A stretch of DNA of 64,000 bases, taken from NCBI GenBank assembly GCA_030549495.1, contig JAUIRK010000224.1, positions 1 through 64,000 of the forward strand, given 5' to 3'. This document shows positions 553 to 64,000 of this stretch, in pieces. This DNA comes from Nectonema munidae. Its lineage: Eukaryota; Nematomorpha; Nectonematoida; Nectonematidae. The notes under the pieces were generated by a model that ran no database searches, was not told the DNA's origin, and was given only the letters and a program-made list of their open reading frames with translations. Position 1 is the first letter of the stretch, and every line of letters starts with the position of its first letter. The position numbers and the translations under genes are program-made.

Positions 553-3500
553 ACGAAAAATACTGCAATCTAGTGGCGTGCACAGATTTCACATTTTGTC
601 CGAAAGTAGAGCACATATGTGACATGAGGTATGGAAGGACTGGGCTTTGTTGTTTACCGGAAGAAGATAGAAATGAAATTGAAAGAGATCTTGGTAACAG
701 TTCAGTCTTCATTTTACCATATGTTACTTGGAATTGGTGGAAATAGTACGAGTTATTTAAAAATTCGTTTCAAACATGGTTCTGCATTCAAAGGGAAATT
801 ACTCTTTCCCGAATCATCGGCTTGCTTCATCAGCCAGCCAATATGATCGGAAATATAACTTATTGGGAACTATGTTTCAAGTTTAATTAACTTAAGAATG
901 CTGTGTGACGTCCTTTTGGGATAACGTGGTCTTGCACGGGATCCTGAGTCTAGGATCTACATGGACATTCCATCTCACTTAACAACAAAGAAAGGGCATT
1001 GATGACTATACCTTGATAAATTTTATTTAACAAGAATATGTTTTAGATATATGAATACACTATATGAATAAGATATATGAATAAATGATCACACAAACGC
1101 TCATAAAAGTGGAAAATCTTAATGTCTAGTTTTAGATTATGTAAAAATAAGTTAATTTTTATTGCTTATAGATGGCGTTAAATAAATTTATTTTTCAAAA
1201 AATTATCACTTTTCTTTTGATTCCTAATGGTCTAATAAAATTATTCTTTCAAATTAAGGAAGAAACTTTATTTGAGTGTTTTAAAAATTATATAGCAAAT
1301 TTTAAAAATAGCCTCTATAGTAGGAAAAAATTGAAGCTTTTGTAAGTTTTTTTTTAAATTTTTTTTGTATAATCAATCAATCTCAATTATAAATAGCAAA
1401 ATTCATTCATGGTAAATATTTTTTAAATTTTTATATATTTTCAATACAATCTATCTTTTTTATACTTAGGATATTTTCAAATTCATTTTTTGGAAAAGTG
1501 AACTTTTTATTATTATGCATATTATTATTATTTTCAGTTTTTCAAATTAAATACAAATTTTATAGATAACTGATTTGGTTTGACTTAATTTTATAAACAC
1601 ACACCCACACAAACATACATAGATACCGAATTTATTAAAAATGATGATAAAAAATAGATTTTTAATATTAATAATAAAAATATCTTAAATTTTGCATGAT
1701 ATAAAGTTAAAAAATTTAATAATAAATTGAAAAATTTACTTTTATAACTTCAATAAAGTAAAACAAATGATATATTATAGTGAATTTGCAGTGGGTGAAT
1801 TTATCCATCATTAATATCGGTTTATAATCGTTTTTTAAGTTAGTTATTTGACAAGAACAAAAGAAAATTCAGTAAAGTCCATATTTGACTACAGGGAAAA
1901 AAGGATGGCAAAAAAATTTTATAAAATTTTTTTTTATAAATAAGCGTAATTAAAAGATAATTAAAATTTTAGTAATGATTATGCAAATTTTTTTTTAATT
2001 ACTATTAACACAAATCGACTTAGTTTTTTGCAAAAAGTATAAAATTTTTAAAAAACCTGAGTATAAAAAATATATTTGTCATGATCGGAAATTAATAAAT
2101 AAAAGAATTAACATTTTTGTGAAAAAAGTTTATTTTTAAGCTCAAAAAATATAGTTCTGATAATTCGGGCAAATTTTTTAAATGGCAAAGTATATGATTA
2201 CTGTGCTTAAACATATATTGGCATAGCTTATATAAATGTCAAACATTAGTTGGGTTTTCTGACCAAATTGAGGGTGTATTAAAATTTTGAGGATGTAGAT
2301 TTTCGAAAAAAACTTACTCCATGAGAAAGAAAATGTAATGTTTGTCTGAGTGAATGAGTATGTATTTGAAAAGAGCAAATGAAAAATTGAGCAGCTTACA
2401 TGTTAAAGACGAGTAAAGTGATGCGCATCCAGACAAGTTAATGGGGTGGATGGCATAGACAGACACGAAGCATAAATAAATTATTAAAATAAATATGATT
2501 TTTATAGGAGCTGCAGAGACTAGTTCAAAGACAGGAAAAAATGTGTTCTGTGTTTAAAAAATAGAATATAAATATCTAATGCTATATTTAATTTTTCATT
2601 GGTGTATTAGTAGTTTAATGTGAAGCATGGGATATTTTATTACATATGGTGTAGCAAAGGTTAGGTGTGTGTGTGTGTGTGTGTGTGTGTGTGTGTGTGT
2701 GTGTGTGTGTGTGTGTGTGTGTGTGTGTGTGTGTGTGTGTGTGTGTGTGTGTGTGTGTGTGTGCGTGTGTGTGTGTGTGTGTGTGTGTGTGAAAAGTTTT
2801 GATGGTGGTAATGTTGATGAGAAAAAAGATGAAAGTTTGTGAAAAATGGGATTAGAAAGTAGTCTGAGGTGGATGCTTTAATTCGGAAAATGATTTATGA
2901 TTTCTTTTTTGAGTGAAAAGTTTGGAAATGCAGAAGGTGATGGAATCAAAGTTAAAAGGTTTTGAAGGATGTGCCGATTTATAGATGAGCGCTAATTACT
3001 TGGGATTTTGATTGCAAAAATTAAATATATGCTGATTATGTAACATTATATAACAATATGCAGATTATGATTGGAATAGTGATGAATGATGGAATTGATG
3101 ATGGTTATGAAAATGATGACGAAAATCAGGATGATGGAGATGATAAAGAAAATGATCATTATAAAGCTGATCATGATGATAACTAGAATGATGATGATGA
3201 TGATTATGATGATGTGATGATGATGATGATTATGATGATGTGATGATGATGAGGGTCATGATAATCATGAAATGGTAATGAAAATGGTGTCGAAAACAAT
3301 AATGATGATGATGATGATGTTGTGATGATAAAAAGAATGACGAAAATCTTCATAATGAAGTTGGTAATATTATTATGATTGGTATATTATGATGATCGTG
3401 AAATGGTAATGAAAATGGTTTTGAAGATGATGATGTTTAGTGTGTTAATGATGATGATGAGTTTCATGATGATGATGATGTAATGATAAAAAGGATGACG

Positions 3501-62865: not shown

Positions 62866-64000
62866 TAACCTTTGCTACACCATCTGTAATAAAATATCCC
62901 ATGCTTCACATTAAACTACTAATACACCAATGAAAAATTAAATATAGCATTAGATATTTATATTCTATTTTTTAAACACAGAACACATTTTTTCCTGTCT
63001 TTGAACTAGTCTCTGCAGCTCCTATAAAAATCATATTTATTTTAATAATTTATTTATGCTTCGTGTCTGTCTATGCCATCCACCCCATTAACTTGTCTGG
63101 ATGCGCATCACTTTACTCGTCTTTAACATGTAAGCTGCTCAATTTTTCATTTGCTCTTTTCAAATACATACTCATTCACTCAGACAAACATTACATTTTC
63201 TTTCTCATGGAGTAAGTTTTTTTCGAAAATCTACATCCTCAAAATTTTAATACACCCTCAATTTGGTCAGAAAACCCAACTAATGTTTGACATTTATATA
63301 AGCTATGCCAATATATGTTTAAGCACAGTAATCATATACTTTGCCATTTAAAAAATTTGCCCGAATTATCAGAACTATATTTTTTGAGCTTAAAAATAAA
63401 CTTTTTTCACAAAAATGTTAATTCTTTTATTTATTAATTTCCGATCATGACAAATATATTTTTTATACTCAGGTTTTTTAAAAATTTTATACTTTTGCAA
63501 AAAACTAAGTCGATTTGTGTTAATAGTAATTAAAAAAAATTTGCATAATCATTACTAAAATTTTAATTATCTTTTAATTACGCTTATTTATAAAAAAAAA
63601 TTTTATAAAATTTTTTGCCATCCTTTTTTCCCTGTAGTCAAATATGGACTTTACTGAATTTTCTTTTGTTCTTGTCAAATAACTAACTTAAAAAACGATT
63701 ATAAACCGATATTAATGATGGATAAATTCACCCACTGCAAATTCACTATAATATATCATTTGTTTTACTTTATTGAAGTTATAAAAGTAAATTTTTCAAT
63801 TTATTATTAAATTTTTTAACTTTATATCATGCAAAATTTAAGATATTTTTATTATTAATATTAAAAATCTATTTTTTATCATCATTTTTAATAAATTCGG
63901 TATCTATGTATGTTTGTGTGGGTGTGTGTTTATAAAATTAAGTCAAACCAAATCAGTTATCTATAAAATTTGTATTTAATTTGAAAAACTGAAAATAATA

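Follow-up and report, generated by a model that had tools for sequence, protein, structure and literature searches.

Architecture of the inverted repeat and its genes

The analysed stretch (the window) covers positions 1-64000 of C185, a contig of 65,781 bp belonging to a 211.6-Mb assembly of 748 contigs. Self-comparison and BLAST analysis demonstrated that C185 is an inverted repeat nearly from end to end. BLAST aligned the arms with each other in pieces of 12.5, 5.2, 3.5, 2.3 and 2.0 kb with identities of 97-99.7%, and the E value of 0 excluded chance as the source of the repeat. When the entire contig was compared with itself, 1-36500 paired with 65525-37301 in five main blocks: 1-13929 with 65525-51520, 13927-19152 with 51636-46414, 19166-21386 with 44747-42481, 30997-33009 with 42751-40740, and 33035-36500 with 40752-37301. 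Another contig, C634, prolonged the arm pairing out to C185 position 65554. Innermost, 36530-36558 paired with 37303-37275, beyond a point where the right arm has lost 32 bp; what remains between the arms is the spacer of 716 bp (36559-37274) that had been predicted. The left arm (1-36558, forward), defined by BLAST, self-comparison and its overlap with C634, includes a segment of 9.6 kb present on this side only and measures approximately 36.5 kb. The right arm (37275-64000, reverse, running on to 65554 beyond the window), defined by BLAST and self-comparison, measures approximately 28.3 kb. The original prediction of an inverted repeat spanning almost the whole window agreed with this pairing, which reaches both ends of C185, and its estimate of at least 35 kb per arm applied to the left arm and was too long for the right. 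C185 has the near-identical inverted arms around a short spacer that a true large palindrome would show.

Each arm carries a copy of CWF19L2, normally a single-copy gene, spread over several exons. The left copy is located at 8846-13393 on the reverse strand. Its large exon within 11933-13393 matched CwfJ_C_1 in Pfam, and CwfJ_C_2 was split over two exon pieces at 10764-11009 and 8846-8989, scoring 46.2 and 24.6 bits, respectively, so that the one was above the Pfam cut-off of 28.8 bits and the other, taken alone, below it. The right copy lies at 52070-56619 on the forward strand; here the scan covered the large exon, and the two smaller pieces were identified from sequence matches alone. Of the two intact copies predicted, the presence of one on each arm was confirmed, with this qualification for the right one. 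The large exons of the two copies differed by one substitution (R262K). The only database relative was that of a rotifer, with 29% identity over 24% of the query. A cysteine-rich gene, also predicted on both arms, was recovered as ORFs at 7719-8093 and 57372-57749, and a Pfam scan of the left one gave no match. The inner arm contains part of a retroelement ORF at 34943-35323 (forward), mirrored at 38479-38859. This window ORF alone had no Pfam match; a longer copy of it on contig C635 matched GIY-YIG (PF01541), and we take the element to be Penelope-like.

Divergence and structural differences between the arms

Substitutions were found at 75 of the 26,805 sites in the 26.8 kb of aligned arms, corresponding to 0.16% in the first two blocks together and to 0.68%, 1.05% and 0.23% in the following ones. 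The 31 SNPs in 19,134 bp of the outer arms showed no clustering (P = 0.47 for the longest gap and P = 0.25 for their spread), and converted tracts were therefore not visible there. Divergence was uneven, reaching about 1.7% (21 substitutions) at 31023-32290 and zero from 32291 to 33009, perhaps owing to exchange with other copies of the element.

The kilobase-scale differences originally described between the arms were indeed present. A segment of 9.6 kb (21387-30996, forward) was identified by arm alignment in the left arm only, and one of approximately 1.7 kb (44748-46413, reverse) by self-comparison and arm alignment in the right arm only. The predicted 114-bp tandem duplication was likewise located at 13813-14043 (forward) of the left arm and was missing from the other. 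The inner 0.6 kb of the right-only segment was 96% identical to an element on C634. In the left-only segment, the part at 21407-27720 recurs on C635 at 98%, and two ORFs matched DDE_Tnp_1_7 (Pfam), presumably of the piggyBac type. The region 30069-30518 is a high-copy repeat of 450 bp, found at 98-99% identity in 21 scored places, inside an element with a DDE_Tnp_1_7 fragment.

The left-only segment is flanked by two direct repeats, D1 (21116-21386) and D2 (30997-31267), both on the forward strand, about 270 bp long and 94% identical to each other. The right arm has a single copy (42481-42751, reverse), whose first part matches D1 and whose last part matches D2, with a few bases of its own. 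On this comparison, the single copy is the product of recombination between D1 and D2, which would have removed the 9.6 kb. As the right copy is such a mosaic, the right arm is best read as having arisen by deletion from an ancestor resembling the left arm, and the succession arm-D1-9.6 kb-D2-inner arm as real and not the result of a join made at 21387. The finding cuts both ways: the right arm has evolved, yet such a deletion is equally expected of an allele. We also considered D1 and D2 as the terminal repeats of a young element, which was rejected given the 6% divergence between them and the mosaic nature of the single right-arm copy.

Outer ends and copy number

The end of C634 (524,466 bp) dovetailed with window positions 1-8004, with 3 mismatches in 8008 columns. 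Over the same stretch, C634 differed from the right arm by 15 substitutions and from the left arm by 3, siding with the left at all of the 13 sites in 8 kb where the arms carry different bases. The arms further differed here by 16 indels, of which 9 had the left-arm state in C634, 6 the right-arm state and 1 neither; the six shared with the right arm, five single-base and one of two bases, are probably consensus errors of C185. Judging from the substitution sites, the left end of C185 continues into C634 in SNP phase.

The right arm followed C634 to 65554 and then entered a transposon, in which C185 ends after 228 bp; C634 has no transposon at the homologous point. The start of this transposon (229 bp) was found at 99-100% identity in 39 other scored places among the best 40 of 1390 candidates. 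Since C185 stops in such a high-copy element, one unique flank is known and not two. C634 also matched the right tail at a point 2.6 kb further out (96.5%); this resembled an allelic flank and was rejected as one, being a match within a repeat family. The family of the right-end transposon (C185:65553-65781) is very homogeneous, often occurs in inverted pairs approximately 0.85-1.2 kb apart, and has probably been active recently.

DNA searches with the arm pieces 8100-13800, which holds CWF19L2, and 14100-18900 gave two full-length matches each, all in C185, and the outer 8 kb of the arm was present a third time as the overlap with C634. Single full-length matches were obtained for a probe on C634 just outside the arm, another 14 kb out, and a 9-kb probe on C635. 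These counts are lower bounds based on the best candidates, and they leave out window 3600-13800 and C634 504467-514466, both so overrun by repeats that neither search listed its own locus. An allelic divergence of 0.16% is plausible, and no allelic pair with which it could be compared was found at the 9-kb probe on C635 or at the two on C634.

The centre lies inside a transposon

The centre is straddled by a transposon (36050-37751) with family copies elsewhere in the genome. The segment 36400-36872 matched 28 places outside C185 and C635 over its whole length, with 89-96% identity. In three of the six family copies fetched, the segment 36873-37266 came 245-270 bp further on, and the other three did not extend to this second part in the stretch fetched. 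The additional 245-270 bp in those three copies indicated that the centre is one transposon copy, entered from the left arm and internally deleted at 36872/36873; the family comparison thus identifies the spacer as transposon interior continuous with the left arm. At 37266, both fetched copies that reach this point run into other sequence, and C185 runs into the same transposon reversed. As three further matches, scored and not fetched, continue to 37276, the head-to-head breakpoint was placed within approximately 10 bases (37266-37276). The location of the junction inside a transposon had not been part of the original prediction. The left inner arm retains the 32 bp and joins the left half of the spacer, and the right inner arm lacks them and joins the right half; left and right are different sides of the centre. 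In addition, contig C53 contains the centre transposon five times at approximately 359501-383774, about 5.95 kb apart, the pattern of a tandem array with a larger repeat unit.

A second copy of the junction

The same junction with the same internal deletion was found on C635 (40,951 bp), at 99% identity over 1 kb. The two contigs are colinear over C185 positions 21407-39196 apart from one break, at which C635 has 27720 joined to a 150-bp repeat array near 34026-34325. The fetched stretch of C635 has no counterpart of C185 27720-34026 near its base 4902, a second large difference in the transposon cluster. Beyond 21407 the two contigs part, and a 9-kb probe from this portion of C635 had its only full-length match in itself. 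Between C635 and C185, six substitutions and two gaps were detected at 36501-36884 and no difference at 36885-37410. C635 thus shows the junction of C185 together with variants not found there, so that the palindromic centre is real DNA rather than a single chimeric read, a result that goes beyond the original prediction. A one-off chimeric join at the centre was rejected on the same grounds. The identity of the junction on both contigs suggests that it is older than the split of C185 and C635.

We then compared four inner-arm copies, namely C185 left, C185 right, C635 near and C635 far, over 1958 columns. Private substitutions numbered 33 in C635 far, 3 in C185 left, 2 in C185 right and 1 in C635 near, with two shared patterns; three copies were nearly alike and C635 far was the outlier. 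The derived changes at 36383 and 36390 were common to both inner arms of C635 and absent from both arms of C185 and from all six family copies. If the junction predates the split of the contigs, the best reading of these changes is that the sides of the C635 centre exchanged sequence, in one event at most because the two lie only 7 bp apart. At site 36290, C635 near has the family base and the other three copies share a change, and at 36173 it is C635 far that has the family base; these two sites group the copies otherwise than 36383 and 36390 do.

Duplication or joined haplotypes

For the long arms, the two options originally offered, a true palindrome and two haplotypes joined head to head by the assembler, are still the leading readings, and we regard them as about equal. 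We place the probability that C185 is a true inverted duplication, with both long arms on one chromosome, at roughly 0.48. The segment with CWF19L2 and the transposon cluster would then have been duplicated head to head about a junction within a transposon, with the left copy passing through the element to about 37266 and the right copy being the same element reversed from 36558. Such copying could have proceeded by a template switch or by fold-back repair. The arms would subsequently have diverged by 0.16-1%, repeat recombination would have taken the 9.6 kb out of the right arm, transposons would have inserted, and short tracts near the centre may have been exchanged between the sides. This duplication is favoured because the centre is real, its sides are opposite and the flank probes are single-copy; three of the four probes outside the arms were single, and the two arm pieces were double with both matches in C185. 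The order of the parts lends further support, as arm-D1-9.6 kb-D2-inner arm is implied for the ancestor of the right arm and C635 has the 9.6 kb, the inner arm and the spacer in colinear order. The two derived changes common to the inner arms of C635 are also what exchange across the centre would produce.

Doubt about the duplication arises because no second unique flank was seen, because the inverted repeat fills the contig as artefacts do, and because full-length CWF19L2 DNA was detected by DNA search only in these two copies. Moreover, the 0.16% divergence, the even scatter of SNPs and the insertion differences look allelic. The long arms are also not needed for the centre, since the same centre on C635 leads to unrelated sequence on one side. 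In a nearly as plausible account, although one short of even odds, the assembler linked two haplotypes of one locus in head-to-head orientation through a real inverted repeat of smaller size. The genuine palindrome would then be small, its inner arms extending a few kb on either side of the 716-bp spacer, and the CWF19L2 arms would be the two alleles of one side, the assembler having entered by one, crossed the centre and left by the other. The 31 randomly spaced SNPs in 19,134 bp are an allele-like divergence, and the deletion, the microsatellites and the insertion look heterozygous. Both ends of C185 lie near the same homologous point, with the transposon on the right and not in C634, and a join of haplotypes explains why a second flank is missing, why the inverted repeat fills the contig and why full-length CWF19L2 DNA was detected only in C185. 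Palindromes made by assembly are moreover a recognised artefact, as two papers state (PMC12448946, PMC7953838). On the other hand, alleles only 0.16% apart would have been kept separate for 20 kb, yet the flank was single at the two informative C634 probes, and the account requires a false join at the centre, although long reads of ordinary length should bridge it. It also sits poorly with the attachment of left and right to different spacer halves. Furthermore, the left inner arm is unlike C635 far right up to the spacer, the last of the 33 substitutions private to the latter being at 36480, 20 bases from the spacer side. This difference likewise disfavoured the variant in which the true sequence beyond the right arm is that of C635, with the left arm an allele attached wrongly at the inner repeat.

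We consider it very improbable that a one-molecule artefact, either a missed hairpin adapter or an inverted chimera of whole-genome amplification, seeded the centre and that the assembler extended the sides. Amplification chimeras usually switch to the opposite strand and restart some hundred bases back, a shape that the centre resembles; however, C635 has the same junction with private and shared variants of its own, and the arms bear phased SNPs and a recombinant repeat. The simplest form of this artefact, the missed-adapter fold-back, was rejected outright, as had been argued originally: the arms are not identical apart from read errors, given the 13 of 13 substitution sites in 8 kb phased with C634 and the deletion made by recombination at D. 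The further statement that the sequence alone could not decide still holds for whether the right side leads to the CWF19L2 arm on the same chromosome, but no longer for the centre, owing to C635.

Going beyond the inverted duplication itself, one may picture a transposon-centred palindrome in at least two chromosomal settings, its centre kept alike by exchange and CWF19L2 doubled, caught at an intermediate stage with one arm losing 9.6 kb. We hold this fuller picture to be rather unlikely.

Relation to known palindromes

Primate Y palindromes have large inverted arms around a short unique spacer. C185 resembles them in its large arms, short spacer and head-to-head gene pair, and the C635 centre adds a hint of the side-to-side exchange known there. 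Unlike them, C185 has arms of 28-36 kb with structural differences of 9.6 kb and 1.7 kb, no converted tracts were seen in its outer arms, and it is not known to be sex-linked. Gene conversion is noted for the large gene-bearing palindromes of primate Y chromosomes in one paper (PMC7953838). Another describes palindromes of homologous copies in the 2013 assembly of Adineta vaga (PMC5916493), and a study of Botryllus reports that its authors checked palindromes by depth, duplicated BUSCO genes and a read-based error check (PMC12448946). Uncollapsed haplotypes or wrong scaffolding are named as sources of artefact palindromes in two of these papers (PMC12448946, PMC7953838). C185 is similar to the Adineta vaga and Botryllus cases in that a single assembled piece bears copies that look allelic, arranged head to head, but differs in that its junction recurs on a second contig, which indicates that the centre was not made by scaffolding. 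Palindromes and assembly-made palindromes are both treated as known kinds in these papers (PMC7953838, PMC5916493, PMC12448946). The palindrome of C185 is not a categorically new system.

A comparison can also be made on the level of the inner arm, which holds a GIY-YIG endonuclease fragment once per side. Penelope-like elements often leave inverted or tandem partial copies, and C185 is like them in this respect. Unlike separate insertions of such elements, the inner arms of C185 are only 0.23% apart, and two other long-matching places outside C635 are 91-92% identical; from this difference we infer that the two sides arose by duplication and not by two insertions.

If both arms are on one chromosome, C185 represents a palindrome that is young and not yet symmetric, in which the original junction can still be placed to within approximately 10 bases. 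As a true palindrome with a diverged sister junction elsewhere, it would inform on palindrome formation at transposons and on the onset of exchange between arms. If the arms are alleles, it serves as a caution that a convincing palindrome can come from mixed haplotypes, with a small real inverted repeat hidden in the middle.

Apart from the palindrome, COX1 was located on contig C107 (fetched piece 1282-2805) and was open under the invertebrate mitochondrial code, which together with the several exons of CWF19L2 makes an animal the probable source of the DNA. The best 120 of 8000 scored relatives were arthropods with 45-52% identity, a low value behind which there is perhaps a fast-evolving mitochondrial genome.
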